DNA from: an uncultured Roseobacter sp.
Lineage (GTDB): Bacteria; Pseudomonadota; Alphaproteobacteria; Rhodobacterales; Rhodobacteraceae
NCBI RefSeq assembly: GCF_947495275.1
Contig: NZ_CANLYL010000006.1
Coordinates: 62,001 to 126,000, forward strand
Direction of reading: 5' to 3'
Length of the DNA stretch: 64,000 bases
The position numbers and the translations under genes are program-made. Numbering within the stretch: position 1 is the first letter of the stretch; every line of letters starts with the position of its first letter. The notes beneath the pieces were generated by a model, which searched no databases, had not been told where the DNA came from, and was given only the letters and a program-made list of their open reading frames with translations. Of this stretch, positions 2,956 to 18,203 are shown one piece after another.

Positions 2956-2958
2956 CGG

Positions 2959-4275
2959 TCAGCTGTCCCAGATTGCGCCAAAGGCAGGGATGCCTTCGCT
3001 CTCCATATCGTAGATCACCCGTTGCGTGAGTTTTTGGTTCGAGATGACGATCACCGCCTCCGCTCCAGTTTTTCTGACCGCTTCAAGAGCCAGTTGCGAC
3101 AAATCCGGTTTCCCGCGTGTGTCGGTATCCCAGATCAGCGGATCGTCGGTGTTTGCCTCGATCTCATCGACCAGCGCGTCTCCGTAGGTTGCGCGTGGTG
3201 ATCTTGTGGACCAGATCAGATAGTTGGGTACATCATGGGCCAGCAGATGCGGCAAGATGGGACCAATCCCGCTGCCGGTCCCGACGTAGACGACTTTCCT
3301 GAACAAGACTTCAACACGCGCAACGCCCGAGGTCGTAATCCCTTTGACCCAGACATGAGAGGGGGGATTGTCGATGAAGCGTCCTGTCCAATCTCCGGCA
3401 CGGCTGACCACAAGACGGTATCCACTTTCTCCTGGTGTCGGAATGTTTGCAAAAGAATGCCACTCCCGCAGGGGGTTGACGCTGATCGCATTGGACGAGC
3501 CGGGAAAAGGCGTGTCACCGTAGTCGAACCGGATCGACACCGCGTGGTTGCTGGGTTTGACGACCTCGATCGGCACTTTCTTGAGCGTGAGCCAGGGTGA
3601 GAGGATGGAAAGGGTCAGAAGACTGAGCATCCAGAACGAAAAGGAACCGACAAACGGATTGCCTGCGTCCAGATGAAGGGCTGCACTTTGCCCCCAGAAC
3701 AGCGCCAGAAGTGTCCAGCCCGCAAACCTGTGCACCAGCTCGAACCGGTTGTGAAATCTGGCGCGTAGCGGTCCGATGGCGGTGAGGGTCATGGCGACCA
3801 TCAAAGCGACCATCGCGCCGCTCAGGCCTATGGTTGTCAGCGAAGTATGGGGGTCACTCGCCCGCCAATTCGAGAGCATGGCGAAGACCAGAAAGATGAA
3901 CCAGATCGATCCCGCAACCGTTCCGCCGGAATGTAATCCGCCAAAGTGAAAAACCTTGCCCGCCAGCCAGCGCAGCTGCAAAGGCCAAGTGACCGGAACG
4001 CGCGTCGCTGCCCAAAAAAGCAAATTCACCACCCTTTGCTGACGGATCAGGATGCCAAGCGAAAAGTTCAGCAGCGCAATCTTCGCGATGGCAGCCAGAT
4101 CGAAAGCTGCAAAACTCCCCCACCATCCCTCGGCCACGCCTTGCACAAAAAGCCACAGGTTCGCAATCGCAACAATTGCGGCCAGACGCCTGTACTCAAT
4201 CAACGCGGGATGTCGTGTGAATCTGCGCAGGTTAAATCCCTGTCGAAATTCCCGGGTACTGATCTGGTCACTCAT
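2959..4275 (-). CDS. Membrane ferric-reductase-like flavoprotein (FNR-type C-terminal domain)
   Basis: 438 aa. About six hydrophobic helices (residues about 30-215) contain several histidines that could bind haem (HFGGLHSGG, FELVHRFAGW, AALHLDAG). A soluble half follows with a flavin-binding-type block (SVNPLREWHSFANIP), SRAGDWTGRF, a nucleotide-binding loop VVYVGTGSGIGP near residue 340, and a final segment containing VIVISNQKL and GIPAFGAIWDS. This is the layout of ferric reductase or NADPH-oxidase-type proteins, although the flavin motif is not canonical. Its start overlaps the upstream adenylation gene by 4 nt, indicating translational coupling. The electron acceptor is unknown; a link to an adenylated or acyl substrate is only inferred from the operon. 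Confidence 0.7.
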   Translation of the reverse strand: MSDQISTREFRQGFNLRRFTRHPALIEYRRLAAIVAIANLWLFVQGVAEGWWGSFAAFDLAAIAKIALLNFSLGILIRQQRVVNLLFWAATRVPVTWPLQLRWLAGKVFHFGGLHSGGTVAGSIWFIFLVFAMLSNWRASDPHTSLTTIGLSGAMVALMVAMTLTAIGPLRARFHNRFELVHRFAGWTLLALFWGQSAALHLDAGNPFVGSFSFWMLSLLTLSILSPWLTLKKVPIEVVKPSNHAVSIRFDYGDTPFPGSSNAISVNPLREWHSFANIPTPGESGYRLVVSRAGDWTGRFIDNPPSHVWVKGITTSGVARVEVLFRKVVYVGTGSGIGPILPHLLAHDVPNYLIWSTRSPRATYGDALVDEIEANTDDPLIWDTDTRGKPDLSQLALEAVRKTGAEAVIVISNQKLTQRVIYDMESEGIPAFGAIWDS

Positions 4276-5924
4276 TGCGCTGCTTCCGCCTTTGATGCCG
4301 CCAATTCGGTGCGCGCCATCTCAAGCAACAGGCGTTTATCCAGTTTGCCACGCGCAGTTTTTGGAAGATCGTCCAGCGGGATGACAAGCGCCGGCACGCA
4401 ATAGTAGGGCAACATGGTTGCCACGACCTCTGCGGCTTCATGCGGATTGGTGCAGATTGGGCTGACAAATGACACAAGCGTGCGGTCATCATATTTAAGC
4501 GTCACCGCTTGGGCGCAGTCAGGCGTCGCCTCCAACGCGCGGCTCACCCCGTCCAGTTCAACCCGGAAACCGCGGATTTTCACCAAATCATCAACCCGCC
4601 CGCAATGGCGTAATTCGCCTGTTTCTGTCCATCGCCCCAGATCACGGGTGCGAAACATTTTGTGGCCAGGGCGAAAAGGATCCGGGCGGTAGCGATCGGC
4701 GTTGAGTTCGGGATTGGCAATATAGCCCGCCGTGACACAATCACCCCCGGCCCACATCTCCCCCTTCTCGCCGAACGGTAGCGCCTTCAGCGCGTCATCG
4801 AGAATATAAACGGTGTTGTTGGGAGTTGGCTTGCCGATTGTCAGGTCGTGCTTTTCGGGACGGTGCCGGATGGCGGTGTTTATGATCGTTGTCTCGGTCG
4901 GACCGCAAGAATTGTAAAAGTGGCAGAATGATCCCCAGGTATCTGCCAGAGGGCGAGGGCATGGTTCTCCTGCAACGGCCACCCTCTTCACCTGTTGACA
5001 GCGTGAGGCGTCGATAGTTGCAAGGATGGAGGGCGTAGCAATCAGCACATCCACTTGCTCTGCGGTCGCCTGGATATCGCTGCCACGGATCACCAGTGTA
5101 CCGCCGTTGGCAAGGCATCCGAGAATCTCCCAGGCAGCCATATCGAAGGCGATGGAAAGGATTTGCCCAACGCTCTGGCCGGGCCCAATTCCCATGTCTC
5201 CGGGGCTGGTCAAAAGGATATTCGCCAGATTTCGATGGGTGATCTGCACGCCATTGGGCGTACCGGTTGTGCCAGAGGTGAACAGAACCATGCAGTTATC
5301 ATCTGGCGTTACCGGACTGATGACGGGTGCCTTAACCAGCCCGTTGTCTTCCATGGTCTCATCAATCGCGATCAAAATTTGACCGGCGGAGACAGGAACC
5401 TGATCCCGTAGTTCGCTCAGCGTCAAAATGACCGTGATGTTGGTGACTTTTGCAATATGCCGCAAGGCACTGTCGGTAGCGACCCCGATATGTTGCGGTG
5501 CGTAGGCCGCGCCAAGCTTCATCGCAGCAAGAATGCCGACCACCATCGGGATGGAACGTTTGAGGAAAATCCCAACCACATCGCCCCGCACCACCCCGTG
5601 GGAATGCAAATGGTGTGCCAGCTGGTCCGCAGCACGACCCAGCTGCGCATAAGTCAATTGCGCCCCGTTGGCTCTGACTGCGATCTGGTTCGGATAGAGA
5701 CGGATCATTCGTTCAATCGCGACCGCAATCGTGCTGTGCCGCGGTGGGGTATCTGGTCCCCAGCCAAATTCCGTAAACCAGTTTTCCGGAACGCCTCTGG
5801 GCAGAGAATTTTCGGGGCGAAAAGGGTCACAATCGGTCGTGTCGCGGGGGGCAATTCTCTGTGTCAGCATTGGGTACTCGTGTCCTGTTTTACGGCTGTA
5901 ATAATTTGTGGGAAAAATTCCCAT
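4272..5924 (-). CDS. Adenylate-forming enzyme (NRPS-like A domain / acyl-CoA ligase superfamily)
   Basis: Stand-alone ANL-superfamily enzyme. Core motifs are in order: FTSGTTGTPNGVQITH (A3), YNSCGPTETTI (A5), FRTRDLGRWTETGELRHCGR (A7-A8), IRGFRVEL, and the A10 lysine in PKTARGKLDKRLL. In A3 the usual Lys of PKG is Asn, which is unusual. No carrier-protein or condensation domain follows, so it probably activates a free acid and hands it to CoA or to a separate carrier. The start at 5924 lacks a clear ribosome binding site and lies on a palindrome; ATG 5870 (MLTQRIAPRD) is a plausible shorter start. It is the first gene of the operon with the membrane flavoprotein and enoyl-CoA hydratase. Confidence 0.82.
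   Translation of the reverse strand: MGIFPTNYYSRKTGHEYPMLTQRIAPRDTTDCDPFRPENSLPRGVPENWFTEFGWGPDTPPRHSTIAVAIERMIRLYPNQIAVRANGAQLTYAQLGRAADQLAHHLHSHGVVRGDVVGIFLKRSIPMVVGILAAMKLGAAYAPQHIGVATDSALRHIAKVTNITVILTLSELRDQVPVSAGQILIAIDETMEDNGLVKAPVISPVTPDDNCMVLFTSGTTGTPNGVQITHRNLANILLTSPGDMGIGPGQSVGQILSIAFDMAAWEILGCLANGGTLVIRGSDIQATAEQVDVLIATPSILATIDASRCQQVKRVAVAGEPCPRPLADTWGSFCHFYNSCGPTETTIINTAIRHRPEKHDLTIGKPTPNNTVYILDDALKALPFGEKGEMWAGGDCVTAGYIANPELNADRYRPDPFRPGHKMFRTRDLGRWTETGELRHCGRVDDLVKIRGFRVELDGVSRALEATPDCAQAVTLKYDDRTLVSFVSPICTNPHEAAEVVATMLPYYCVPALVIPLDDLPKTARGKLDKRLLLEMARTELAASKAEAAQ
5910..5922. promoter_or_regulatory. Palindrome in the divergent promoter region
   Basis: GGGAAAAATTCCC is a 5-bp inverted repeat with a 3-nt centre, flanked more loosely by TTTG and CAAA. 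It sits between the divergent adenylation operon and the DUF6502-like gene and touches the upstream start candidate of the former. It may be an operator; no specific regulator is identified. Confidence 0.35.
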
Positions 5925-5975: not shown

Positions 5976-6806
5976 GTGTGGAGCTTGTTAGAGGATGATA
6001 ATTTGTCGGAAGAACCGGCCAGACTTTTAAAGAAAACGCTGTCTGTACTGCTTCGCCCTGTCGCCAAGCTCATGATAAGTCATGGGTTTTCGATACAAGA
6101 CGCAGTCGAGCTGATGAAAGCCGCGATGGTTCAGGACGTTCTGAGTAATGGGGCGGCTACCGACAGCCATATTGCGCTCAAAACTGGGGTTCATCGGAAA
6201 GACGTACGCCGGTTGCGCGCCTCAAATCCCGAATCCGCAGGTAACATCGCCAGGGTCAGCCCTATTGCGATCGTACAAACACATTGGGCGTTTACCCCAC
6301 CGTTTGGCAGCGATACCGGTGTGCCTGGGCTGCTGACCCGACAGGGAGAGCAGGGGTTCGATGCATTGGTACGATCAAGCAAGGTTGACCTGCCCCCGGC
6401 AACTGTTTTGGCGGAAATGAAAACCCAACGTTTGGTGGAGGAAAAGCCCGACAGGAAGCTTGAGCTTTTGACCACCACATACGTTCCAAAATTCCAGACG
6501 CAGACCCTCGCAGCGCTGGAGGCGACACTCTCTGACCACCTCCGTGTGGCGGTGGAGAATGCAACCGATCGCCTGGAAAGCCGGCGACATTTCGACCAGG
6601 TACTGCGGTATTCTCACCTCTCCGATAAGTCGATAAACATCCTAGAAGACGCCGCCAGAAAGCGCGCACGCGAGTTTCTGGACGAACTCAATTCTCTTGC
6701 CCACGAGCTGCAGCAACAGGATGACAGAGCGGAAGAGCCCGCAAGAGGGCGATTTGTCACCGGAATATTCATCGCGCCCACCGCCGATCCGCCAAAAGAA
6801 GATTAA
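5976..6806 (+). CDS. DUF6502-like protein (putative HTH)
   Basis: 276 aa from GTG 5976; a TTG at 6003 with AGAGG 8 nt upstream is an alternative start giving 267 aa. The N-terminal third (LLRPVAKLMISHGFSI, then TDSHIALKTGVHRKDVRRL) resembles the DUF6502 family and has a helix-turn-helix look, which suggests DNA binding. The central part has a proline/tryptophan segment (THWAFTPPFGSD). The C-terminal part is helical and charged (KRAREFLDELNSLAHELQQQ). It has no signal peptide or membrane segment. It ends 5 nt before a DUF5666-like exported protein, a pairing also known elsewhere in proteobacteria. Function unknown. Confidence 0.65.
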   Translation: MWSLLEDDNLSEEPARLLKKTLSVLLRPVAKLMISHGFSIQDAVELMKAAMVQDVLSNGAATDSHIALKTGVHRKDVRRLRASNPESAGNIARVSPIAIVQTHWAFTPPFGSDTGVPGLLTRQGEQGFDALVRSSKVDLPPATVLAEMKTQRLVEEKPDRKLELLTTTYVPKFQTQTLAALEATLSDHLRVAVENATDRLESRRHFDQVLRYSHLSDKSINILEDAARKRAREFLDELNSLAHELQQQDDRAEEPARGRFVTGIFIAPTADPPKED

Positions 6807-6811
6807 CCAAT

Positions 6812-7705
6812 ATGACGTTTCAAACTCCCTCTATCATCCTGATCCTGACGGTTGCGATCAACCTCTTTGGAAGCTTGTCAAATGCCGAGGAGCCACGAGA
6901 AGGAGGCCTGACCGGCACCGGCCTTATTGGCGTTCTGAACGTGGCGCAGGAAATCGATGTTGCGGGACAGAACCTGACATTCCCACAAGATCTCGTCGTG
7001 CGCTCTCCATTGGGTCCGCTCCGCGCAACGGAGCTCTCTTCCGGCGATATCGTTGCCGTAGGTCTCGCAACGCGTGATACGGGCGTTCAGGTCGAAGATG
7101 CGCGACAGCTCTTTGCCATCATCGGGCCGGTGGCGACGGTCTCGGATAATAACCTCTCGATCATGGGAACTTCGATCAATGTCGCGGAACTCCCTCAGCT
7201 TGATCTGACATCCGGAGATTGGGTCGCTGTAAGTGGTTTCTGGCGAAAAGACGAGGTCTTCGCCACGGGTCTCAAAGCCATTCCGCCCCAGGCAGAGGCG
7301 CAGATTTTCGGTACGTTGGCCAACAAAACAGCCGACCGGATTGGCGGAACAAGTATTTCAAGCGTAGGCACCCAAACGTATTTGCAGTTCGATGCTGTTC
7401 AGGTTTTTGGGCAGCCTGTAGGAGAGCAATTGGTCGCCACCCGGATCGTTTCAGGTCTCTTTGATCGCCCGGTTCGGCGTATCTTGGCGCAAGGCTTTTT
7501 ATCGTCGCCAAATGATCTGGGCGACTACACGGTTCTTGGCACTGGGTTCAGGGCGCGAACGGACAGGCCCGAAATGATCGACAGTCATCAACTTCAACTG
7601 CATTGCTCGGAGAACGGCGCGTTGCTGGCCAAAGAAGCGATTGGCCTGACGGTTGATCAAGCTGTTTCCTTGCAGAATTGCTTGCATCGAAACCCACACA
7701 ATTGA
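6812..7705 (+). CDS. Exported DUF5666-like beta-domain protein
   Basis: 297 aa with a clear signal peptide (ILILTVAINLFGSLSNAEE, cleavage near residue 25). The mature part consists of beta-rich repeats of OB or DUF5666 character, with recurring segments of the type SGDIVAVGLA, SGDWVAVSGFW and GPVATVSDNNLSIMG. The C-terminal part contains HCSENGALLAKEA and two cysteines that could form a disulfide. It is coupled to the upstream DUF6502-like gene (5-nt gap). Envelope location is predicted; the biochemical role is unknown. Confidence 0.6.
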   Translation: MTFQTPSIILILTVAINLFGSLSNAEEPREGGLTGTGLIGVLNVAQEIDVAGQNLTFPQDLVVRSPLGPLRATELSSGDIVAVGLATRDTGVQVEDARQLFAIIGPVATVSDNNLSIMGTSINVAELPQLDLTSGDWVAVSGFWRKDEVFATGLKAIPPQAEAQIFGTLANKTADRIGGTSISSVGTQTYLQFDAVQVFGQPVGEQLVATRIVSGLFDRPVRRILAQGFLSSPNDLGDYTVLGTGFRARTDRPEMIDSHQLQLHCSENGALLAKEAIGLTVDQAVSLQNCLHRNPHN

Positions 7706-7860: not shown

Positions 7861-8304
7861 ATGGGCGTAGACGTTCCCGACGACTATACAATTGATCTGA
7901 CCTTGCGCGGTGGCACATCCATCGACGGCGATCTGTCGATGGATACTGATCTGAGAATTCGTGAAATACCGGAAATTTCGCTGCGGGTTCGCGAGTTGCC
8001 AGAAATCAAGCTTGGTATCACTGAATTGCCGAAAGTGCAGCTTGGCGTCGATCCGATCGACTTTTCGCTGCGGGTGAAAGAGATACCGGCGATCCGGGCG
8101 CATCTCCCGGCGAATTTCAAAGTGGGTCTGTCTCTTCTCGGTAATGAATTGCTGTCAATCAACCTTTGTGGCGAAGCGCAAGTCATAACGGAGGATTACA
8201 AGGCCAATCCCTGTGAGTTGTGCGGTCCTCAGAACAGTTTCAGCACCAACGATTCCATCCGGGGGAACATCAACCGCATTGAACTCGTAGAAGAAGATGG
8301 CTGA
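7861..8304 (+). CDS. Decapeptide-repeat protein, first gene of the isoprenoid/scaffold cluster
   Basis: 147 aa. The start at ATG 7861 is set by GAAGGAG about 9 nt upstream; a longer open frame back to 7732 has no such site. Residues 31-80 are built of units of about 10 residues: LRIREIPEIS, LRVRELPEIK, LGITELPKVQ, a shortened LGVDPIDFS, then LRVKEIPAIR. The alternating hydrophobic pattern with an E-(I/L)-P turn suggests a beta-solenoid or stacked strands. The tail carries INLCGEAQVI and NPCELCG, i.e. three cysteines. No signal peptide or membrane helix. It overlaps the next gene by 8 nt. I do not recognise a characterised family; a structural or scaffold role is inferred. Confidence 0.75.
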   Translation: MGVDVPDDYTIDLTLRGGTSIDGDLSMDTDLRIREIPEISLRVRELPEIKLGITELPKVQLGVDPIDFSLRVKEIPAIRAHLPANFKVGLSLLGNELLSINLCGEAQVITEDYKANPCELCGPQNSFSTNDSIRGNINRIELVEEDG

Positions 8305-9025
8305 TCTCAAAGAGAGCATCCACCTCGATCAAGGGCAAGGCATTGCTTCTTTCTCGGTCGAGCGAGCACAATCCGCTGTGTTGAAACTCAGTGGCGATAT
8401 GAAGAAAGCGGTGGGCGCGGAGGTGAAAGCACGCTTACTGCCGCGAAAAGGAAAAACGCGCATTTCGACCCGGATCGGGCTCGATGCCCCGCCGGGAACT
8501 CATAAGGCGGTGCTTGCAACGGAAGGCGGGGACATTCCGGTATCCATCGTGGTGGCACCCAAAAAGCGTCTGCGGTTGTTGCCCTCCTCGGTTGAGATCA
8601 CCGGCCGTCCGGGTGACAAGATCCGCGTTGATCTGAAAGTTGCGAACCTCGGAAATACGGATATGGCATTGCCAGCTGGGGGCATCGCCGGACTATTTGC
8701 TTCTGACGGGTTGGCAGGGGCGTTCTCAGCGGCCTATGGCTCGGCCACCGAAGCGCCGCTTGAGGTATTTGGCGAATTCATAGACGGGTTGCGCCGATCA
8801 CATCTTGGGCTTGTACGTTTGCGCCTGATCGACAAGGTGAAATCACCCCTGAAACCTGGTGATAAGCGCGATCTGATCGGGGAGTTTTCCCTGCCAGAAC
8901 CACAAAATGAGAAAACCCAAATCGGTGCAGGACGCCGGTTTCATGCAACCTTTGTTATGGACCGCCTGCGGCTCGTGATGCGCCTGACGCTCAGCGCTCC
9001 GATCAAGAAAGGGGAACAGCGATGA
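8297..9025 (+). CDS. Unknown two-domain beta-sandwich-like protein
   Basis: 242 aa. The N-terminal 90 residues and the next 140 both read as Ig-like beta domains (GTHKAVLATEGGDIPVSIVV; then SVEITGRPGDKIRVDLKVAN, followed by LGNTDMALP), a style seen in proteins built of repeated NEW3 or COG1470-type domains. A linker (LFASDGLAGAFSAAYGSA) leads into a helical segment FGEFIDGLRRSHLGLVRL that could be amphipathic. There is no signal peptide, so the protein should be cytoplasmic, which is unusual for such domains. It overlaps both neighbours (8 nt and 4 nt), so its synthesis is coupled to theirs. Function unknown. Confidence 0.65.
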   Translation: MADLKESIHLDQGQGIASFSVERAQSAVLKLSGDMKKAVGAEVKARLLPRKGKTRISTRIGLDAPPGTHKAVLATEGGDIPVSIVVAPKKRLRLLPSSVEITGRPGDKIRVDLKVANLGNTDMALPAGGIAGLFASDGLAGAFSAAYGSATEAPLEVFGEFIDGLRRSHLGLVRLRLIDKVKSPLKPGDKRDLIGEFSLPEPQNEKTQIGAGRRFHATFVMDRLRLVMRLTLSAPIKKGEQR

Positions 9026-9660
9026 CAAAACGCAAATCGGCTGCGACTGATGTGCGGCAAACTATGGACGCCATGTCAGACGTCCTGTCACGACAACTGG
9101 ATTTGAGCGGTGATATTGTAGACAGTCTTGCCGACAGTGCGCGCAGGTTTTTGTCTGGACTGTCACAAAATGTTGGTCCGGGCAGTTGCGAGATACCGGA
9201 ACCTTGCTGGATGCCTCATGATCTGGGTGAATATCATTGTGATCTCTGCAAAGGCAGTTCGGGCACGATGGAAATTCGGATCACCAACACCGATTACCGG
9301 GCGCGGAACTTCACGATCGTCGCTGCTGGCCCGGATGCTGGAAGAGTATCACTTACGCCCAACAGCTTCTCCCTGGGCCCTAAAGAACGCCGCACTGTGA
9401 CTGCACGTTTTGATGCCGCGCTTGATGATACGGTTCATTGCGCCGAGCTCGAAGCTCTGATCTGGGTGATGGGATGTAACAGCCATTTCCTGCGTTGGAC
9501 AATTGACGTGGGCAAATCGGAACGCGCTTGCTGTCATCATGTCGATGTATTTGACCAACCTGACTATGTGCATCACTGGTACGATCATTTTTACTGTGTA
9601 AGGCCCTGTTTCGGTAAAACAGCCCGACCGGTTCCCGGCGCGAAGGATACGGTTGGATAG
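9022..9660 (+). CDS. Unknown Cys/His-rich protein with amphipathic N-terminal helix and beta domain
   Basis: 212 aa. Residues about 10-50 form a helical stretch (MDAMSDVLSRQLDLSG, DIVDSLADSARRFLSGL) reminiscent of phasins. A cysteine pair HCDLCKGSSG follows, then an Ig/MSP-like beta domain (GTMEIRITNTDYRARNFTIV, then LGPKERRTVTARFDA). The C-terminus is rich in Cys, His and aromatic residues (ERACCHHVDVFD, YVHHWYDHFYCVRPCFG), suggesting metal binding. No signal peptide. It overlaps the preceding gene by 4 nt and is followed after 3 nt by the next. Not a family I recognise. Confidence 0.65.
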   Translation: MTKRKSAATDVRQTMDAMSDVLSRQLDLSGDIVDSLADSARRFLSGLSQNVGPGSCEIPEPCWMPHDLGEYHCDLCKGSSGTMEIRITNTDYRARNFTIVAAGPDAGRVSLTPNSFSLGPKERRTVTARFDAALDDTVHCAELEALIWVMGCNSHFLRWTIDVGKSERACCHHVDVFDQPDYVHHWYDHFYCVRPCFGKTARPVPGAKDTVG

Positions 9661-9663
9661 GAA

Positions 9664-10194
9664 ATGCTGAATTCACAATTCAAAGGATTAGCGCGTCAGG
9701 CCCTGCGCCTGAATATGCAGTATTATGGCGGATTGTTCGATGTGACGCGCGACTACCTCGTTGCCTTGCGCAAGCTGGCGGATGAGGGCTCAGCCCCGGA
9801 CGTACCCGTCAACAAACCCGCGCCCAAGGCCGCAGCCCCGGCTATTCCCCCTTTGGTTCTGGCCGCTCCTGCTGGTAAGCAGGCCTCCGCAAGCTTTGCT
9901 GTGACCAATACCACGGGTCAGGAGGTTGCAGCCGACCCTGAGGTATCTGAAAACCTGAAAAAGGCAGGCGTGATCGCAGAACCCGCCGGACGCATGGTGG
10001 CAGCGGGTCAAGATGCAATCTTTACGCTTAAGGCTAAACCGTCTGGCAAGATGCCGGTGGAAACCGATTTGCACGGAACAGTCAGCGTGCCGCACTTCGG
10101 CGATCGTGAGATACCCGTTGTGCTGCGCCGCCTGCCCCCGGACCCGGCCGTTTCCAAACCCAAGCGCAAATCAGCCGCCCGGAAAAACCCGTGA
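9664..10194 (+). CDS. Phasin-like helix + beta domain + lysine-rich tail protein
   Basis: 176 aa. An amphipathic N-terminal helix (FKGLARQALRLNMQYYGGLF, then DVTRDYLVALRKLADEG) is followed by a Pro/Ala linker, then a beta domain of about 90 residues with an Ig-like look (GKQASASFAVTNTTGQEV). The extreme C-terminus is basic (SKPKRKSAARKNP), like the histone-like tails of PhaF-type phasins. Domain order and tail match the gene at 12107, so the two may be paralogues. It overlaps the methyltransferase gene by 4 nt (GTGA). A role in coating a lipid body or nucleic acid is inferred from layout only. Confidence 0.62.
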   Translation: MLNSQFKGLARQALRLNMQYYGGLFDVTRDYLVALRKLADEGSAPDVPVNKPAPKAAAPAIPPLVLAAPAGKQASASFAVTNTTGQEVAADPEVSENLKKAGVIAEPAGRMVAAGQDAIFTLKAKPSGKMPVETDLHGTVSVPHFGDREIPVVLRRLPPDPAVSKPKRKSAARKNP

Positions 10195-11030
10195 GCGCGC
10201 CCGGCGGCATCATGGCCGAAGGTGTTCTGGTGCAAGCCATGCACCTTTACTCTGCCTTTGTAATGAAACCTTATGAGCAAGGGCGTCAGGCGGGGCTGAT
10301 TGAGCGCACGACCGAAGGAACCCTCCCGACCCCTCTCGAGCGCAATGGATTGGGTCAGCATTTTTGCAAGACATATCCACGCCCCGTGCTTTTGGGGCGT
10401 GCGACAGAAAATGACGCATTGGTTTCTGAATTTGATCGCATGGGGGAGATTTACGACGCCTATGTGCGGCCGTTTTCGACGCCGATCATGAACGCAGCGG
10501 TGCAGGAACTATCGGCCTATATCCGGCCGGATTTCCGTTTGCTGGACGCGGGATGCGGGGCGGGTCGCGAGCTTTGTCGACTGTCGCAACTGGTGCCGGA
10601 TGGCGAGGTGGTCGGAATTGACCTGGCGGCTGGCATGGTCAACGCCGGTCACAAATCGGCGCGCGCCAAGGCTTTCGATAATACGGCCTTTTTCCAATCC
10701 GATGTGGGGGATTTGCCAGAGGTTTTCACCGATCAGTTTGATTTGGTCTATTCCTGTCTGGCACATCATCACTATCCCGATCCCCCGGCGGCAACGCGGG
10801 AGATTTTTCGGTCCTTGCGGCCCGGTGGCTATTACACGGTAATCGATGCAGGGCCCGAATGGTTTGTGAAACGGTCCTCTTCGCTCGCGCTATGGGCCGA
10901 CCCCGGCTGGATCGGGTTTCACACACCAGAACAATTTATGGCGCTTTTTGAGGCTGCGGGTTTTACGAATACCGGCTGGATAGATTTGGTACCCGGGTTC
11001 GGCATTGCCTGTGCACAGAAGCCACTTTGA
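10191..11030 (+). CDS. Class I SAM-dependent methyltransferase
   Basis: 279 aa from GTG 10191, overlapping the upstream stop. The SAM-binding fold is clear from residue about 100: motif I LLDAGCGAGRELCRLS, acidic loop VVGIDLAAGMVNAG, DVGDLPEVF, then the motif IV region FDLVYSCLAHHHYPDP and RSLRPGGYYTVIDAG. The N-terminal 80 residues are extra and contain helical segments (MAEGVLVQAMHLYSAFVMKP). The substrate is unknown. Position directly before an isoprenyl diphosphate synthase suggests a prenyl chain or quinone-like substrate, by inference. It overlaps the next gene by 4 nt. Confidence 0.85.
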   Translation: MSAPGGIMAEGVLVQAMHLYSAFVMKPYEQGRQAGLIERTTEGTLPTPLERNGLGQHFCKTYPRPVLLGRATENDALVSEFDRMGEIYDAYVRPFSTPIMNAAVQELSAYIRPDFRLLDAGCGAGRELCRLSQLVPDGEVVGIDLAAGMVNAGHKSARAKAFDNTAFFQSDVGDLPEVFTDQFDLVYSCLAHHHYPDPPAATREIFRSLRPGGYYTVIDAGPEWFVKRSSSLALWADPGWIGFHTPEQFMALFEAAGFTNTGWIDLVPGFGIACAQKPL

Positions 11031-12094
11031 ACGGGTCTGATTACGACCGCAGCCTGATCGAAGAGGCATTGAAAACCGCCCGTAACAGGACCGAAGCCTC
11101 GATGACGCGATTTTTCAACGCTCGACGCGAAACGGGGATGGATGTGCTTTACGATCAGATTAGTGATTATCCATTCCGGGTCGGCAAGGGACTGCGCCCT
11201 GCCCTTGTTTATGCGGCTTGTCAGGGGATGGGCGGTACCGAAACGCAGGCTGAAAACACGGCGACCGCAATCGAATTGTTTCACAACGGTGCGCTTGTCC
11301 ACGATGACATTGAGGATAATTCGGACTTCCGACGCGGTGACGAGACCTTGTTTCGCCGCCACGGCGTTCCGATCGCCATCAATACCGGTGATGCCACATT
11401 TGTATTTTGTCTGTCTTTGCTGTTGGACAATGTCGAACGATTGGGTGTCCGCAAGGCGATGCGGATTCTCAAGGATTTTGAGCGGCTAAGCCGGGAATCC
11501 GTCGAGGGTCAGGCCATCGAGCTTGACTGGATACATAACGCACGTTTTGACCTCGACACCGACGACTACCTGCGCATGGCTTACAAAAAGACCTGCTGGT
11601 ACACAATGATCGCGCCTCTGCGGCTGGGTGTTGTGGCCGGGTCAGGGCCTTCGATGGTCGCACAGCTTGAAGAGGCGCTGATTGATGTGATGGAACTTGG
11701 ATATCTGGCAGGTATCGGGTTTCAGGTGCAGGACGATCTGCTGAACCTGACTGCGGACGAAGTCCTCTATGGCAAAGAGATCAGCGGCGATCTTTTCGAA
11801 GGCAAGCGCACCGTGATGTTGCTGCATTTCCTGCGCACCGCCCCGAAACGGCAACGCGCCCGCGCCATCAAGCTTCTGACCTTACCACGCGCCGAAAAAG
11901 AACCGGATGAAGTGCGTTGGTTATTGCAGGCCATGCACGAAGCAGGATCGATTGATCATGGGCGCACCATCGCGCAGAGCTTCATTTCCCGTGCGCTGGC
12001 ATTCGAAGCGGAAGGCTTGAGCTTCATGCCCGAAACCCGTCACCGCCGCTTCCTGCGCGAGGTGCTCAAATACGTCATTGCAAGATTGAAATGA
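11027..12094 (+). CDS. Polyprenyl (trans-isoprenyl) diphosphate synthase
   Basis: 355 aa, TTG start overlapping the methyltransferase stop (TTGA). It condenses isopentenyl diphosphate with an allylic diphosphate to give a prenyl diphosphate. The first Asp-rich motif is intact (LVHDDIEDNSDFRRG). The second is GFQVQDDLLNL, i.e. DDxxN rather than DDxxD, followed by a lysine segment ISGDLFEGKRTVM that binds pyrophosphate in the family. DDxxN occurs in eukaryote-type (type III) GGPP synthases. Also seen are KGLRPALVYAA at the N-terminus and RESVEGQAIELDW in the middle. Chain length cannot be read with confidence. It is the metabolic core of the cluster. Confidence 0.88.
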   Translation: MNGSDYDRSLIEEALKTARNRTEASMTRFFNARRETGMDVLYDQISDYPFRVGKGLRPALVYAACQGMGGTETQAENTATAIELFHNGALVHDDIEDNSDFRRGDETLFRRHGVPIAINTGDATFVFCLSLLLDNVERLGVRKAMRILKDFERLSRESVEGQAIELDWIHNARFDLDTDDYLRMAYKKTCWYTMIAPLRLGVVAGSGPSMVAQLEEALIDVMELGYLAGIGFQVQDDLLNLTADEVLYGKEISGDLFEGKRTVMLLHFLRTAPKRQRARAIKLLTLPRAEKEPDEVRWLLQAMHEAGSIDHGRTIAQSFISRALAFEAEGLSFMPETRHRRFLREVLKYVIARLK

Positions 12095-12106
12095 GGGGGA
12101 GATCAG

Positions 12107-12685
12107 ATGCCACATGACCATGACCACGGGAACATCCCGTCCAGTCCGTTTGAGGAGCTTGTCAAACTTCAAAGCTCTTTTCAGCAAAGCCTGAGTCAGG
12201 CGACGATGAACTATCTGCGGCAGTTGCAGGGTATCGTTGGTCCCGTGACGCCCGGCACTGTTGTGCAGCAGGTGGATGGCCACACTGTTGAACTCTCCAT
12301 GGCACCGGGAGGCAAATCTTCTGCCAAAATCAATGTCGAAAACCGACAGCGCGTACACTCGATGATCACCCCGATGATCACGCCGCTTGTATCTGATGTG
12401 GGCGCAACCTGGTTTGCCCAAACGGCATTCTCCCCGCCGACGGCGTTGCTTGCAACGGATGAAACACTCGATTTCACGTTGTCACTTTCAGCGCCAAAAG
12501 AGATGCCGCTTGGTGTATATCGCGGTGCTGTGCTGATCTACGGTTGTTCCGAGGGTGTCGTTCCTTTGGAAGTAACGGTCGCGGCACCGGCCGCACGCCG
12601 GACCAAGGTGAAAGCCACGGCCGCCAAAGCCTCTGCCCGAAAACAAACACGCCGCAAAACCGGTAAAACCCCCGCTGCATCCTGA
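12107..12685 (+). CDS. Phasin-like helix + beta domain + histone-like tail protein
   Basis: 192 aa, preceded by a GGGGGAGA ribosome binding site. It opens with His-rich MPHDHDHGN, then a helix rich in Ser, Gln and Leu (FEELVKLQSSFQQSLSQATM, then NYLRQLQGIVGP) that looks like a phasin core. A beta domain follows (DFTLSLSAPKEMPLGVYRG, then AVLIYGCSEG) and resembles an Ig-like fold. The last 30 residues are Lys/Arg/Ala-rich (RRTKVKATAAKASARKQTRR), the composition of PhaF or histone-like AAKP tails that bind DNA. Same architecture as the product at 9664. No signal peptide. Role unknown. Confidence 0.65.
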   Translation: MPHDHDHGNIPSSPFEELVKLQSSFQQSLSQATMNYLRQLQGIVGPVTPGTVVQQVDGHTVELSMAPGGKSSAKINVENRQRVHSMITPMITPLVSDVGATWFAQTAFSPPTALLATDETLDFTLSLSAPKEMPLGVYRGAVLIYGCSEGVVPLEVTVAAPAARRTKVKATAAKASARKQTRRKTGKTPAAS

Positions 12686-12695
12686 GGAAAAGATC

Positions 12696-13259
12696 ATGCC
12701 AGATACCGCAAGCATTCGATTAATCGATCCTCCCGAAGACGCCGGACGTACGACTGCCAGCCTGTTTGCCTCCCTCGCAAGCCGCTTGATTACCTTGCAT
12801 TATACTTCGGGTGTGAGTGTTATAGGCTCCACGCTTGCGGGGCTCGCCGAGGCGGGTCGCGAGATATCCAAGACCGCCGAAGGCGCCCGCATAAGACGCG
12901 CGCTGGAAGCAAGTGCCATCAAGGAAAACGGCGACCTGCTTTGGAATGCTTTGCGTGTCACGGGCTGGACCGAAGGCATGCCCGCAGCACCGGTTCTTGA
13001 CCACATTCGCAACGATCTGGCGTTGCTGTTGGCGGATGACCTGGCTGAAACCATTGAGAACGTCCCTGCCCCGCTCGAAAACAAGGTGCGCCAATCGGGC
13101 AATGTGCCTGCAAACATCAACTTCATCGATACTCTGATGGGCCTTTGGATACACTCTCGCGAGATTGTCCAATCGGTTGAGGCGATGGCGCGCTTGGCAC
13201 CGGATATCGACGCAGTCGAACCCGGTGACGCGGTTCACAGCGGACCCATTTTGCGGTGA
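12696..13259 (+). CDS. Unknown helical protein, possibly phasin-like
   Basis: 187 aa, preceded by GAGGA. It is almost entirely helical by composition: an alanine/serine-rich N-terminal region (TASLFASLASRLITLHYTSG, IGSTLAGLAEAGREISKTAE), a basic stretch ARIRRALEAS, and a C-terminal helical part containing DTLMGLWIHSREIVQSVEAM. It has no signal peptide or full membrane helix. It overlaps the CrtC-like gene by 4 nt. I do not recognise a family; amphipathic binding to a lipid surface is one reading. Confidence 0.55.
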   Translation: MPDTASIRLIDPPEDAGRTTASLFASLASRLITLHYTSGVSVIGSTLAGLAEAGREISKTAEGARIRRALEASAIKENGDLLWNALRVTGWTEGMPAAPVLDHIRNDLALLLADDLAETIENVPAPLENKVRQSGNVPANINFIDTLMGLWIHSREIVQSVEAMARLAPDIDAVEPGDAVHSGPILR

Positions 13260-14254
13260 CAGCTTTCGATGCGCTGCGCCCACCTGTGACCAGCGACCCC
13301 ACAGCAGAAGCCTACAAAGACTGGTTCCATCTGAACATTTTTGTGCCCGAGAGCGGTCATGTCGTTCTTATCAACCTATCGCTGCATGGCCCGCCCTGGG
13401 ACAGGCGGACACGTGTCGTCGGCACGGCGCTGGCCTGTGATGTTCAGGGAGTTTGGACAGGCGGAATTGAAATCACTTCGATGTCCGATAGCAGCGTCAG
13501 TCTTCAATCGGTTTTTTTGAAATCTATTTCCTTGGCGGTCTCCCGAGACGGCACCGCATTGCATACCCGGGTGCAGCGTCCCGATGATGGGTTCGAGGTC
13601 GAGATTGTTGCGCAGCCGTTGTTGCCCGCCGGAGCGCTTGATCTTACCGCCAAGTTCGGCAGCGGATGGATCGGCTGGAGCGCTGTTCCGGTGATGTCTG
13701 TCTCCGGTTACCTGCGTATCGACGGGCAAGAGCTGTCTTTGGACGGTGCGCGCGCCTACCATGATCACAACTGGGGGCGCTGGTTTTGGGGTGAAGATGT
13801 TGCCTGGGAATGGGGCGCATTTGCACTTGATCAGGACATCACGGTGGTTGTGGCGCGCGGTACCGACAAACAGCATTTCGTCAAACAACCCCCCCAAGTC
13901 TTTCTGGTATATGGCAAGCGGGTTATTGGATTTACTCCCGATCAGATCGAAATATCTCTGGAGATGGAACCAATTGTTGCAAGTCGCAGATTGCCGGGTG
14001 TGCTTGCAGCGATCCATCCGGATCGGCGACTGTCCGATCTTCCACGACAGCTGGTTTTAAGGGGAGATAATCCAAATGCGCGCTTTGAATTGGTGTTTGA
14101 GACGGATGGTGCGGCGCAGCTACTCCTGGCGGAGCCGATGCGCCCTGGCATGGGCTTCATCAACGAGGTTGCCGGTCGTTGCAAACTCTCCTGTGTGATC
14201 GACCAGAAATCGATTAAGACGACGGGTCTGGGGGTTTTCGAATATGTCACCTGA
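13256..14254 (+). CDS. CrtC/AttH-like lipocalin-fold protein (carotenoid 1,2-hydratase superfamily)
   Basis: 332 aa from GTG 13256. The central motif ARAYHDHNWGRWFWG is the signature (YHDHNWG) of the hydroxyneurosporene synthase / CrtC family and its AttH-like relatives, followed by VAWEWGAFALDQD. The N-terminus starts with WFHLNIFVPESGHVV, the typical first strands of the double-lipocalin fold. Known members hydrate isoprenoid double bonds (CrtC) or are pericyclases in fungal pathways. Next to a prenyl synthase and a methyltransferase, an isoprenoid substrate is likely. No other carotenoid gene (crtB, crtI) is present in the window. It overlaps both neighbours. Confidence 0.75.
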   Translation: MTAFDALRPPVTSDPTAEAYKDWFHLNIFVPESGHVVLINLSLHGPPWDRRTRVVGTALACDVQGVWTGGIEITSMSDSSVSLQSVFLKSISLAVSRDGTALHTRVQRPDDGFEVEIVAQPLLPAGALDLTAKFGSGWIGWSAVPVMSVSGYLRIDGQELSLDGARAYHDHNWGRWFWGEDVAWEWGAFALDQDITVVVARGTDKQHFVKQPPQVFLVYGKRVIGFTPDQIEISLEMEPIVASRRLPGVLAAIHPDRRLSDLPRQLVLRGDNPNARFELVFETDGAAQLLLAEPMRPGMGFINEVAGRCKLSCVIDQKSIKTTGLGVFEYVT

Positions 14255-14771
14255 GCCGCGCCATCTTCGCGATTGGATCGCGGCCCTATTTGCCGGGCTT
14301 GAGCGGGCGGAGCCGCATTCTGCATTGGGTGTTCAGAATCTGGCCGGTTCGGAAGTTTCCCGAATTATGTTGGATAATGAACGTGTCACTGTCCTATTTG
14401 GCCAAAAAGGCCTGCGTGTGACACGCCTCAAAACAGGCGCGAGGCTGACGCCGCCATATGGGGTAACTGATCGGAAGACTGTGGGCGCATTGCTGCTTGG
14501 TCACATGGAAATCTCGGAAGCAATCGCGCATAACCATATTCGCCTGCGCGGCACGGCGGATCAGGTCATGGCGATCTGCGCGATCATCGAAGTACTGGTC
14601 GACGCCAGTACCCGCATTCCGGCCCTTCAGGAACTGGCGGGTGATTTTCTTGCCTCAACAGAACTGACAGATCTGAGGGCGGAGCAGGCGCAAAGACACA
14701 GGCAGTCGGATGTATTGCGCTTGAAGGAATTGGCTCTTTTGCAGCGTGAAGGGCTTCTGAACGGCACGTGA
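14244..14771 (+). CDS. SCP2-like lipid-binding protein
   Basis: 175 aa; ATG 14244 overlaps the upstream stop by 11 nt. The middle reads like an SCP2 sterol-carrier domain: a beta stretch (RVTVLFGQKGLRVTRLKTGA) followed by GALLLGHMEISEAIAHNHIR and then LRGTADQVMAICAIIEVLVD, the usual hydrophobic tail helix. The C-terminal 40 residues are a charged helix. SCP2 domains bind acyl or isoprenoid lipids, which fits a cluster making an isoprenoid. Last gene of the ten-gene unit. The domain call is by eye and moderate. Confidence 0.6.
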   Translation: MSPEPRHLRDWIAALFAGLERAEPHSALGVQNLAGSEVSRIMLDNERVTVLFGQKGLRVTRLKTGARLTPPYGVTDRKTVGALLLGHMEISEAIAHNHIRLRGTADQVMAICAIIEVLVDASTRIPALQELAGDFLASTELTDLRAEQAQRHRQSDVLRLKELALLQREGLLNGT

Positions 14772-14866: not shown

Positions 14867-15871
14867 GTGAACTGGATATTCGTTGGTGCCAGCACAATCG
14901 CTGCGCAATACATGTTATCGGCGGTCAGATCCCAAGCCGGTCACAAGGTTTCGTGGGTTGTGAGTGGGTCGATGGACCGTGGGGCGGCCTGGGCCAGAGA
15001 TCATGGCGTTCCATCTGTCACGACCGATCTCGCTGAGGCCCTTACGGATTCGGACGCCACAATCGCCTACATTTCCACGACCAACGAAAAGCATTTTGGC
15101 CAGGCCATGGCGTGCATTGCGGCGGGCAAACATGTGCTGTGCGAAAAACCGCTCGCGATCAATCTGGGCGAAGCTTGCAGGATGGTTGCGGCTGCGCGTG
15201 ATGCCGGTGTTGTCTTCGGCACCAATCATCATCTTCGGTGTTCCGGTGCTCACCGGGCGATAAAGGAAGTGATAGCAACAGGCCAAATTGGCAAAGTTCT
15301 GTCGTTGCGCATTCATCACGCGGTTTACCTGCCAAAAAACTTGCAGGGCTGGCGGATAAATGATGCTGCGGCTGGTGGCGGCGTGGTGCCAGATATAACG
15401 GTGCACGATGCAGACGTTGCGCGGTTCCTGCTGAAAGAGGACCCTCAATCTGTTGTGGCACAGGTGACATCCTCTGGCATGGGCGAGGGTGTCGAGGATT
15501 CGGCCATGTCGGTCTGGATGATGCCATCTGGCACTATGGTGATGTCCCATGAGAGCTTCACGCATGAATTTGCCGGCAATGGGCTGGAGGTTCACGGCGA
15601 AAGCGGGTCGGTTTTTGCAAACAACGTCATGACACAGGAACCAATTGGCACCGTAAAACTGGTCACGGGGTCAGGAAGGCAACAAATCCCCTATCCACAA
15701 CATTCGCTATACGAGCGGGGTGTTTCAGATTTCGTCACCGCCATCGAGGGGCGGGGTCGGGCTGCGGCTGATGGTGTGGATGGTGTCAAATCGCTGGCCG
15801 TTGCTTTGGCGGTTCGCGAAGCTGCTCAGAGCGGAAAGCGTATAACGGTCAATTACGGAGAGGTATCGTGA
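14867..15871 (+). CDS. Gfo/Idh/MocA family oxidoreductase
   Basis: 334 aa, GTG start. N-terminal NAD(P) Rossmann domain (NWIFVGASTIAAQYML) with the family's EKP motif in GKHVLCEKPLAINLGEAC. The C-terminal substrate domain contains GGGVVPDITVHDADVARFLL, with the His/Asp pair typical of the catalytic site. Members dehydrogenate sugars, cyclitols or their derivatives. It is the first gene after the LacI-type operators and overlaps the CoA-transferase gene by 4 nt, so it belongs to the sugar-import operon. Exact substrate unknown. Confidence 0.88.
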   Translation: MNWIFVGASTIAAQYMLSAVRSQAGHKVSWVVSGSMDRGAAWARDHGVPSVTTDLAEALTDSDATIAYISTTNEKHFGQAMACIAAGKHVLCEKPLAINLGEACRMVAAARDAGVVFGTNHHLRCSGAHRAIKEVIATGQIGKVLSLRIHHAVYLPKNLQGWRINDAAAGGGVVPDITVHDADVARFLLKEDPQSVVAQVTSSGMGEGVEDSAMSVWMMPSGTMVMSHESFTHEFAGNGLEVHGESGSVFANNVMTQEPIGTVKLVTGSGRQQIPYPQHSLYERGVSDFVTAIEGRGRAAADGVDGVKSLAVALAVREAAQSGKRITVNYGEVS

Positions 15872-17439
15872 GCAAGGTCGTATCTCCCGCCGAAGCGGCG
15901 AAGCGTGTCCCCGATGGGGCCGTTGTCACGGTGTCGTCGTCCTCGTCGTTGGGGTGCCCTGATCTCATGCTCAAAGCCATTGGTGAGCGGTTCGAGGCAG
16001 AAGGCCATCCGCGTGATATCACTTCCCTTCATCCAATTGCAGCAGGTGACATGTATGGCGTCAAGGGGATGGACCATCTCGCCAAGGATGGTCTGCTGAC
16101 ACGCGTTCTGGCGGGGTCATACCCTTCAGGCCCGTCCAATCTGGAAATGCCTGAAATCTGGAAAATGATCGTCGAGGATCGCGTCGCTGCATATAATGTG
16201 CCCTCTGGCATCATGTTCGATATGCACCGCGAAGCAGCGGCTCACCGCCCTGGTGTCCTTACCCAGATCGGGCTGGAGACTTTCGTTGACCCTGTCCGCG
16301 AAGGCTGTGCGATGAATGCCCGGGGTGCCGCACGCCCGATCGTATCACGTGTTGAATTCGCCGGAGACACGTGGCTGCATTTTCCAAATGTCGTTCCCGA
16401 TGTCTGCATTTTACGGGCGACCACAGCGGATTCGCACGGCAATCTCACCTACGAACATGAAGGCGCGTATCTGGGTGGCCTGGAGCAGGCGATTTGTGTT
16501 CGCAACAACGGCGGGCTGGTGATCGCACAGGTAGAACGGATCACCGCATTGGGCAGCTTGCGCCCTCATGATGTTCGCGTGCCGGGCCATTTGGTCGACC
16601 TTGTGATCATCGACCCGGATCAGAAACAGACCTGTGAGACGGCTTATGACCCTGCTATTTCCGGACAGGTCATGCGCCCCTGGGAGAGTTTTGCCCACGC
16701 CGAACACGGAGTTGAAAAAGTCATTGCCCGTCGGGCCGCGCAGCAACTTCGCGCCGGAATGACGGCGAACCTCGGTTTTGGCATCAGCGCCATGGTGCCT
16801 CGCATTCTGCTGGAAGAAGGTCATCCGCAAGCGGTGACCTGGGCCATCGAACAGGGGGCCGTCGGAGGGGTGCCGCTGACAGGTTTCGCCTTTGGTTGTG
16901 CCTCAAACGCAGATGCGTTTGTGCCATCGCCGCAGCAGTTCATTTATTTTCAGGGAGGTGGGTTCGATATGTCCTTTCTCTCCTTCATGGAGGTGGACAC
17001 GCATGGCAATGTCAATGTTTCGAAATTGGAGAAAAAACCTTACCTGACAGCGGGTTGTGGCGGGTTTGTGGACATTACGGCACGAGCGCGCAGCATTGTC
17101 TTCTCGGGATGGTTTGAAGCTGGCGCACAGATAGACCTCAGCGATGAAGGCATCAATGTCGCCAAGCCGGGCCGTTTTACCAAGATGGTGGAGAATGTCG
17201 AGCACGTCACTTTCTCGGGGGATCGCGCAAAATCGCTTGGGCAAGACGTGATTTACATTACCGAGCGGTGTGTCATTCGATTGACCGAAGACGGGTTGGT
17301 CGCGACCGAAATCATGCCGGGTATTGATCCGCAAACAGACATCGTTCGCGCCTCCGAACATCGGGTGAAGGTCGCTGAAAACGCCAAGTTGATGCCCAGA
17401 TCACTCCTTGCAAAGACACCGATGGGATTGGTCCTATGA
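15868..17439 (+). CDS. Family I CoA-transferase (propionate/acetoacetate type, single chain)
   Basis: 523 aa from GTG. The alpha-like half (VPDGAVVTVSSSSSLGCPDL) and beta-like half (RRAAQQLRAGMTANLGFGIS) are fused, as in YdiF or propionate CoA-transferases. The catalytic glutamate is probably in TWAIEQGAVGGVPLTG, followed by FIYFQGGGFDMSFLSF. It exchanges CoA between an acyl-CoA and a free acid, giving the operon a way to activate an acid made by the aldehyde dehydrogenase. It overlaps the upstream and downstream genes by 4 nt each. Confidence 0.85.
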   Translation: MSKVVSPAEAAKRVPDGAVVTVSSSSSLGCPDLMLKAIGERFEAEGHPRDITSLHPIAAGDMYGVKGMDHLAKDGLLTRVLAGSYPSGPSNLEMPEIWKMIVEDRVAAYNVPSGIMFDMHREAAAHRPGVLTQIGLETFVDPVREGCAMNARGAARPIVSRVEFAGDTWLHFPNVVPDVCILRATTADSHGNLTYEHEGAYLGGLEQAICVRNNGGLVIAQVERITALGSLRPHDVRVPGHLVDLVIIDPDQKQTCETAYDPAISGQVMRPWESFAHAEHGVEKVIARRAAQQLRAGMTANLGFGISAMVPRILLEEGHPQAVTWAIEQGAVGGVPLTGFAFGCASNADAFVPSPQQFIYFQGGGFDMSFLSFMEVDTHGNVNVSKLEKKPYLTAGCGGFVDITARARSIVFSGWFEAGAQIDLSDEGINVAKPGRFTKMVENVEHVTFSGDRAKSLGQDVIYITERCVIRLTEDGLVATEIMPGIDPQTDIVRASEHRVKVAENAKLMPRSLLAKTPMGLVL

Positions 17440-18203
17440 GCGACGTTATTCTGGAGATCAAGGGAGATATCGCCGTTCTGACATTGAAGAACCCCAGCAA
17501 GTTGAACGCGCTGACAATCCCGATGATCGAAGCGCTGGAATCCCATTTGATGCGGATTGACTCCGACAGCACAATCCGTTGCGTTATTCTGACGGGTTCC
17601 GGCGACAAGGCGTTTTGTTGCGGAGCGGACATTGCGGGTTGGGGGCATCTTACGCCGGCCGAATTTGCACGCCACTGGGTGCGCAACGGGCACCGCGTTT
17701 TCGACCGTTTCGCGCGTCTGCCCCAACCAACGATTGCGGCATTAAACGGTCACGCTTTTGGCGGCGGGCTGGAGTTGGCCAGCGCCTGTGACATCCGTGT
17801 GATTTCTCCCCGCGCCACGCTCGCCTTGCCCGAAGCCCGTGTTGGCATTGTACAGGGTTGGTCCGGCACCCAACGTATTCTTCGGCTGTTGCCCGAACCG
17901 GTGATCAAGGAAATGGCTTTGTTCGGACGTCGCATTTCTGCTGAGCGCGCAATGGCATTGGGCTTTGCTGCTGAACTGGCCGAGGACGCTCTTGTTACGG
18001 CAATGGAAATCGCAAACACGCTAAGCCAGATGTCGTCTCGCGCTACGGAAGTGTCAAAGAACATGATCCATGCGGCGGCGGGCGAAGACAGGGGGGCCAT
18101 GGTCGAGGCATTGGGGAGTGCCGCGGTGGCTGCCAGCGAAGACCGTGAGGAAGGTGTTGCGGCATTCCTTGAAAAGCGGCCACCAGCGTTCTCCGGGACA
18201 TGA
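17436..18203 (+). CDS. Enoyl-CoA hydratase/isomerase family protein
   Basis: 255 aa. Crotonase-fold markers: NPSKLNALTIPMIEAL, ILTGSGDKAFCCGADIAGW, then LNGHAFGGGLELASACDIRV and LPEARVGIVQGWSGTQRIL. The Glu in PEARVGI matches the second catalytic position; the first hydratase Glu is at GGGLELA. Members hydrate enoyl-CoA, but some cleave cyclic diketone CoA esters. Overlaps the CoA-transferase by 4 nt (ATGA). It probably follows CoA activation in the same pathway. Confidence 0.87.
   Translation: MSDVILEIKGDIAVLTLKNPSKLNALTIPMIEALESHLMRIDSDSTIRCVILTGSGDKAFCCGADIAGWGHLTPAEFARHWVRNGHRVFDRFARLPQPTIAALNGHAFGGGLELASACDIRVISPRATLALPEARVGIVQGWSGTQRILRLLPEPVIKEMALFGRRISAERAMALGFAAELAEDALVTAMEIANTLSQMSSRATEVSKNMIHAAAGEDRGAMVEALGSAAVAASEDREEGVAAFLEKRPPAFSGT

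Follow-up and report, generated by a model that had tools for sequence, protein, structure and literature searches.

In plastoglobules and cyanoglobules the enzymes of prenyl-lipid metabolism, tocopherol cyclase among them, are gathered on a protein-coated lipid droplet. The polyhydroxyalkanoate (PHA)-binding protein PhaF follows, in the accounts cited here, a plan consisting of an amphipathic PHA-binding helix and a basic DNA-binding tail (PMC5658603, PMC3574117), and the operons of the Family 2 encapsulins, as far as the cited source presents them, have a polyprenyl transferase or terpene cyclase as cargo (PMC8346489). The subject of this work is a cassette of ten genes, g1 to g10, in a stretch of DNA from an uncultured Roseobacter sp. 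(assembly GCF_947495275.1, contig NZ_CANLYL010000006.1, positions 62,001 to 126,000 of the forward strand), whose whole length of 64,000 nt is hereafter called the window. This cluster is a real conserved unit, beyond what chance would give, and its enzymes probably make a modified isoprenoid lipid, a product that the enzyme set fits; in our judgement there is about an even chance that it is a horizontally spread modular cassette in which g1-g4 and g7 form a coat or scaffold on a hydrophobic inclusion loaded by the enzymes.

The locus resembles PHA granules, or carbonosomes, in that relatives of g1-g4 directly adjoin a PHA synthase (PhaC) in one locus, L085, and it recalls PhaF, as outlined in the sources above, in that the N-terminal helix of g4 and g7 is joined, in several lineages, by a Lys/Ala-rich tail; in contrast, both proteins carry an immunoglobulin (Ig)-like domain between helix and tail, there is no PHA gene among the ten, and the core would be an isoprenoid. 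A phasin system was rejected by the family test, no phasin family being matched above cut-off. With the Family 2 encapsulin operons, as far as that source describes them, the locus shares the linkage of a prenyl diphosphate synthase to structural proteins. An encapsulin was rejected at the family level, as no encapsulin/HK97-type match to Pfam or NCBIfam was found among the ten proteins; with the NCBIfam cargo model NF041169, g6 reaches 152 bits, far below the cut-off of 450, and its score with IdsA is higher, 169 bits (cut-off 468). Plastoglobules and cyanoglobules differ in that no fibrillin-type protein was identified here, and in that the cassette is a bacterial operon whose coat candidates belong to no known family. 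Literature searches turned up no description of this cassette.

Results

Ten open reading frames (ORFs) of the + strand exactly fill the interval 7861-14771, and the gaps obtained from their coordinates along g1 to g10 are -8, -4, +3, -4, -4, +12, +10, -4 and -11 nt, which confirms the close-packed cluster described by the first-pass annotation. That annotation had also proposed looking for a conserved gene neighbourhood, and this was found, the ten families being co-located in 13 loci. A profile built from 36 g9 relatives located 21 loci in species genomes, of which four are archaeal and hold just a distant g9 relative, and 17 are bacterial, all of them also with g6, g8 and g10. All ten families occur together in 11 of these 17, namely L007-L012 (with Roseobacter or Ruegeria titles), the Lysobacterales locus L013, Dormiibacter L015, Cellulomonas L017, L020 and L021 (Cellulomonas L017 and L021 being near-alike); the window itself and the actinobacterial L064 complete the 13. 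As for the remaining bacterial loci, in L014 (Deltaproteobacteria) the start of a contig holds a cut g4 and the genes up to g10, and g1-g3 lie on another contig of the same genome; L016 has nine of the ten families, with g5 not found and g6 truncated at the end of the contig; in L023 there is a single gene of the g4/g7 type, g5 again not being found; two metagenome-assembled genomes, L018 and L019, have g6-g10 only; and in L022 the profiles detected g6, g8, g9 and g10. In L016 and L023 the g3 gene was recognised from its position and by alignment, and both genes were included in the g3 profile with which the genomes of L018 and L019 were searched. Between g6 and g8 of L022 (8144-9254) lie two overlapping frames that resemble one Cys-rich Ig-like protein, perhaps owing to a frameshift in the bin.

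The order g1-g10 is that of the Roseobacter-type loci; in Dormiibacter, Cellulomonas and L064, g6-g10 precede g1-g5, and in the Lysobacterales the two groups face each other tail to tail. These three gene orders indicate that the cassette is made up of two modules, A (g1-g5) and B (g6-g10).

The cassette is rare. Of 18 further genomes of the genus, five contain g9; among 295 genomes of the family (nearly one per genus) and among 385 of the class, the window's own genome was the sole one with g3, which was found in two of 299 genomes of the phylum, the window's own counted. When 30 kb of the window was compared with L007-L012 (blastn, 1e-10), no in-register common flank appeared, and L007 and L008 alone share about 0.5 kb past the cluster edge. 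Horizontal transfer of the cassette is the natural reading.

Only g5 and g6 matched Pfam families over the cut-off, the other eight proteins matching none, and for these two the enzymes proposed by the first-pass annotation, a methyltransferase and an isoprenyl diphosphate synthase, are borne out. The g6 protein (11027..12094, +; 355 aa, TTG start), which opens module B, matches PF00348 at 1.2e-51 (175.8 bits against a cut-off of 27) and resembles the geranylgeranyl diphosphate (GGPP) synthase 1wmw (9.7e-56); PF00348 genes number four in the genome, g6 included. Its Asp-rich motifs are DDIED and DDLLN in the window, the first conserved as DD(I/V/F)(E/Q)D in all 17 rows that reach that region (L016 is cut) and the second as DD(L/V)LN in 18 of 18. 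The g5 protein (10191..11030, +; 279 aa, GTG start, or ATG at 10212) has a conserved N-terminal extension, matches PF13847 at 2.7e-22, and shows the glycine-rich S-adenosylmethionine (SAM) motif DAGCG(A/P/C)GRE in 13/13 aligned rows. It was not found in L016, L018, L019, L022 and L023, and is thus less universal than g6-g10.

The hydratase fold of the CrtC/AttH type that had been attributed to g9 (13256..14254, +; 332 aa) also agrees with the predicted model, which has over its full length the two-barrel fold of the AttH/kievitone hydratase/CrtC/CghA superfamily, at 9-15% identity. The protein carries an invariant D170-H-N-W-G followed by W184-x-W186, with D170 and W184 in 36/36 members and W186 in 35/36, spaced similarly to the catalytic Asp and Trp-x-Trp of CrtC (D268, W283, W285), a correspondence based on spacing, without superposition. 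None of the 36 members matches Pfam CrtC (PF07143) at E <= 0.05; an archaeal relative does so, at 0.034. Below the cut-off, Tocopherol_cycl is matched by one of 36 and DUF2804 by four, and the values recorded for single loci are 0.0083 for L022 (Tocopherol_cycl) and 1.1e-4 for L023 (DUF2804). By the Pfam comparison of sequences, then, g9 is not CrtC proper, and it stands apart as a subfamily of its own with the motif DHNWGRWxWG(D/E/Q)(D/N)xxWxW. The archaeal contigs with distant g9 relatives (L024-L027) have methanogen and ANME titles, and in L025 the relative adjoins, by eye, an ATP-binding-cassette-like protein and a large ORF.

For g10 (14244..14771, +; 175 aa), the proposed SCP2-like lipid binder finds sub-threshold matches in 5 of 15 members at E <= 0.1 (best 6.2e-4), but none in the window's own protein, and it may be regarded as a putative lipid carrier. 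The g8 protein (12696..13259, +; 187 aa) is predicted to be all-helical (mean confidence score, pLDDT, 80) and gave no family, sequence or fold match. In L007-L012 it is 87-90% identical to the window protein, the corresponding values being 89-92% for g5, 91-92% for g6 and 56-67% for g9, g10 and g2, so that among the Roseobacter-type loci g8 is as conserved as g5 and g6.

The number of proteins of unassigned family, previously put at five, is six (g1, g2, g3, g4, g7 and g8), and none of them gave an above-cut-off match to a family that is well known and unrelated. Module A begins with g1 (7861..8304, +; 147 aa), in which variable repeats of the LPxI type precede a conserved block of the type LPANFKVGLSLLGNELLxINLCGEAQVITEDYxPNPCExCG. 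The g2 protein (8297..9025, +; 242 aa) is probably beta-rich and Ig-like, with a NPCBM_assoc/NEW3 match in 3/14 relatives (best 3.9e-5); g3 (9022..9660, +; 212 aa) is Cys/His-rich with an Ig-like middle, its PCWMP and HWYDHF motifs being invariant in 36 closer relatives and looser in distant ones. The paralogues g4 (9664..10194, +; 176 aa) and g7 (12107..12685, +; 192 aa) each have an N-terminal helix, an Ig-like domain and a basic tail. Profile-profile comparison of cleaned sets linked g4 with g7 (98.7%), g2 with g7 (95.0%), g2 with g4 (91.6%) and g3 with g7 (89.7%), and more weakly g2 with g3 (47%) and g3 with g4 (19%), in agreement with weak matches of these proteins to several Ig-type families; g1 and g8 gave no link in the pairs tried.

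The phasin-like character, amphipathic helices and basic tails noted in the first pass hold in part. Weak Phasin_2 matches occur in 5 of 23 g4/g7 proteins at E <= 0.1, all sub-threshold (best 0.0068; in the window g7, residues 15-44, 15.7 bits against a cut-off of 24.9). The best amphipathic helix exceeds shuffled sequences at p<0.05 for g7 in 5/9 loci, for g4 in 1/7 and for g3 in 1/6, but those of the window g3, g4 and g7 are not clearly above shuffles (p 0.05, 0.28 and 0.41). The window g4 and g7 have basic C-terminal tails, which are nearly absent from the Cellulomonas g7 (3 and 4 K+R residues among the last 40). No transmembrane-like stretch was found in the seven window proteins tested (all but g5, g6 and g9), and some relatives reach 2.3 on that scale (g10 of L020).

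Module A also has a life outside the ten-gene cassette. With 276 homologues, g3 exceeds both g9 (92) and g8 (103), from which g3 may be supposed to have a wider one, and four gammaproteobacteria (L030, L085, L086 and L087) carry relatives of g1-g4 (in L030, of g1-g3). In the approximately 19 kb read at each of these loci there are no relatives of g5 or g7-g10, weak cross-matches of the g7 profile to g2-g4 aside, and a genome-wide search for g9, made for L030 alone of the four genomes, found none. In L085, g1-g2-g3-g4 are followed after about 83 bp by the PHA synthase on the same strand (PF07167, 3.9e-55); in L086, g1-g4 are accompanied by a small Lys/Ala-tailed ORF that matches no phasin, by a polyprenyl synthase (5.2e-27) and by an FAD enzyme resembling geranylgeranyl reductase (GGR); in L087 they adjoin an M61 peptidase; and in L030 the companions of g1-g3 are an abhydrolase, a GMC oxidoreductase and a protein weakly resembling DyP. 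In a g3 tree of 137 sequences (120 of the 276 homologues and the locus proteins), L085 belongs to a clade of 25 sequences (support 0.94) that includes a Paracoccus and a Woeseiaceae protein and lacks any ten-gene locus; the clade of L086 has 8 members (support 0.97). The uncharacterised set of L030 (3615-11898) also includes a 192-aa protein with a Lys-rich start and a 502-aa protein of no family; next to g1-g4 in L087 (11604-15707), the genes encode a DUF362 protein of 836 aa whose N-terminus is very basic, a protein resembling epimerases/3beta-HSD, and a small one whose weak matches are of the lipid-transport type.

Around the cluster, a tight run on the - strand (2191-5924) encodes an enoyl-CoA hydratase and an AMP-binding enzyme, together with a protein of 438 aa for which neither a Pfam match nor, at 0.01, a solved relative was found. 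Just upstream of g1 (5976-7705, +) there is a DUF6502 protein and, after 5 nt, a protein with a sub-threshold DUF5666 match, a flank not common to the other Roseobacter-type loci. Downstream (14867-18203, +), an oxidoreductase (GFO/IDH/MocA), a CoA-transferase and an enoyl-CoA hydratase, with 4-nt overlaps, look like a separate catabolic operon.

Discussion

In the system that we propose, g1-g4 together with g7, the paralogue of g4, would form a cytoplasmic coat or scaffold binding a hydrophobic inclusion. The g6 enzyme would supply a prenyl diphosphate, for which a length of C20 or longer is a guess, and g5 could methylate the prenyl chain or a derivative of it; g9, to judge from its predicted fold and conserved residues, may protonate an isoprene double bond, with subsequent addition of water or ring closure, g10 might perhaps carry the lipid, and g8 would be a strongly conserved helical component, the order of the enzyme steps being one that we infer. 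Since relatives of g1-g4 adjoin a PHA synthase in one case and another isoprenoid enzyme in another, they may coat a storage body of a kind not yet described, and the presence of PhaC in L085 favours the idea of an inclusion. As relatives of the coat candidates lie, in other bacteria, beside a PHA synthase, or beside another polyprenyl synthase and a reductase, the coat would be generic and its core variable. More tentatively, and with rather less than an even chance, g1-g4 could be a reusable and hitherto undescribed inclusion coat, with a polyester core near PhaC and a reduced or modified polyisoprenoid near prenyl synthase, the cassette being the isoprenoid version, a bacterial analogue of the plastoglobule that spread as a unit between phyla. 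The coated isoprenoid body of the first-pass annotation thus keeps in its favour the conserved unit, the fit of the enzymes and these neighbours of g1-g4; what does not stand is the dedication of g1-g4 to this pathway, as in four genomes their relatives occur without g7-g10 nearby, and homologues apart from the isoprenoid genes of the cassette do, to this extent, exist.

Several observations weigh against a coated body loaded by these enzymes. The g3 profile found no g3 in the genomes of L018 and L019, which have g6-g10, which could mean that module B functions in the absence of g1-g4, or else that the bins are not complete, and the five module B loci without a nearby g5 suggest that methylation may not be central. 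No enzyme removing or transferring the diphosphate was recognised among the ten proteins by Pfam or NCBIfam, and none of the 23 g4/g7 proteins matches a phasin Pfam family over the cut-off. The amphipathicity of the helix is not significant in the window g4 and g7 and is borderline in g3, and the basic tails are not conserved. Finally, the link to PHA comes from one locus, and the relation to a lipid core of the neighbours found in L030 and L087 is unclear.

Ig-like domains commonly mediate protein contacts, and g1-g4 and g7 could instead be the scaffold of a soluble multi-enzyme complex, their Ig modules docking g6, g5, g9 and g10 so that a water-insoluble prenyl intermediate is channelled without any stored body. 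The tight translational coupling, the SCP2-like carrier and the lack of membrane segments in the seven proteins tested would agree with this arrangement, which we regard as improbable, though the least so of the alternatives, since it does not easily explain why g1-g4 stand directly before the maker of an insoluble polymer. Less probable still is a membrane-lipid pathway, with the proteins on the cytoplasmic membrane, at its inner face, and as product an isoprenoid, methylated and either hydrated or cyclised, that would stand in for a hopanoid, carotenoid or chromanol. It is usual for prenyl products to partition into membranes, an accessory cassette is what would be expected of a niche membrane lipid, and the sub-cut-off Tocopherol_cycl and DUF2804 matches of g9 point the same way; however, the proteins tested have no transmembrane-like stretch, Pfam recognised no squalene synthase, hopene cyclase or prenyltransferase among the ten, and PhaC beside g1-g4 in L085 also speaks against it. 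That g1-g4 coat, or organise, a hydrophobic material accounts most simply for both the PhaC and the prenyl-synthase neighbours.

Very unlikely, in our opinion, is an ordinary pathway of the carotenoid type (CrtE, CrtC and a methyltransferase) in which the accessory proteins would have no particular role. The likeness of g6 to a GGPP synthase and the fold that g9 has in common with kievitone hydratase would suit it, but the g9 members have no Pfam CrtC match at the threshold used, no phytoene synthase, desaturase or carotenoid cyclase was recognised by Pfam among the ten, the unannotated proteins are kept in order and coupling, and g8 is as conserved as the enzymes. The role of g8 itself allows another interpretation, as heteromeric heptaprenyl and hexaprenyl diphosphate synthases exist that have a partner subunit, and g8 might be such a small helical partner of g6 and not a coat protein. 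It occurs in all 17 bacterial loci carrying g6, is predicted to be all-helical and equals g6 in conservation among the Roseobacter-type loci; no match in sequence or fold to a subunit of this kind was obtained, an absence that shows little, and we consider this role unlikely.

In summary, six unannotated protein families are tied to an isoprenoid pathway by a conserved, translationally coupled gene order in several phyla, and even without a body the cassette marks an unknown prenyl product with directly testable enzymes. If the coat formed by g1-g4 and g7 is real, it would represent a further, Ig-domain-based way in which bacteria coat storage or metabolic inclusions, with swappable polyester and isoprenoid cores, and would have a bearing on the storage of prenyl lipids and on the engineering of terpenoid-filled bodies.

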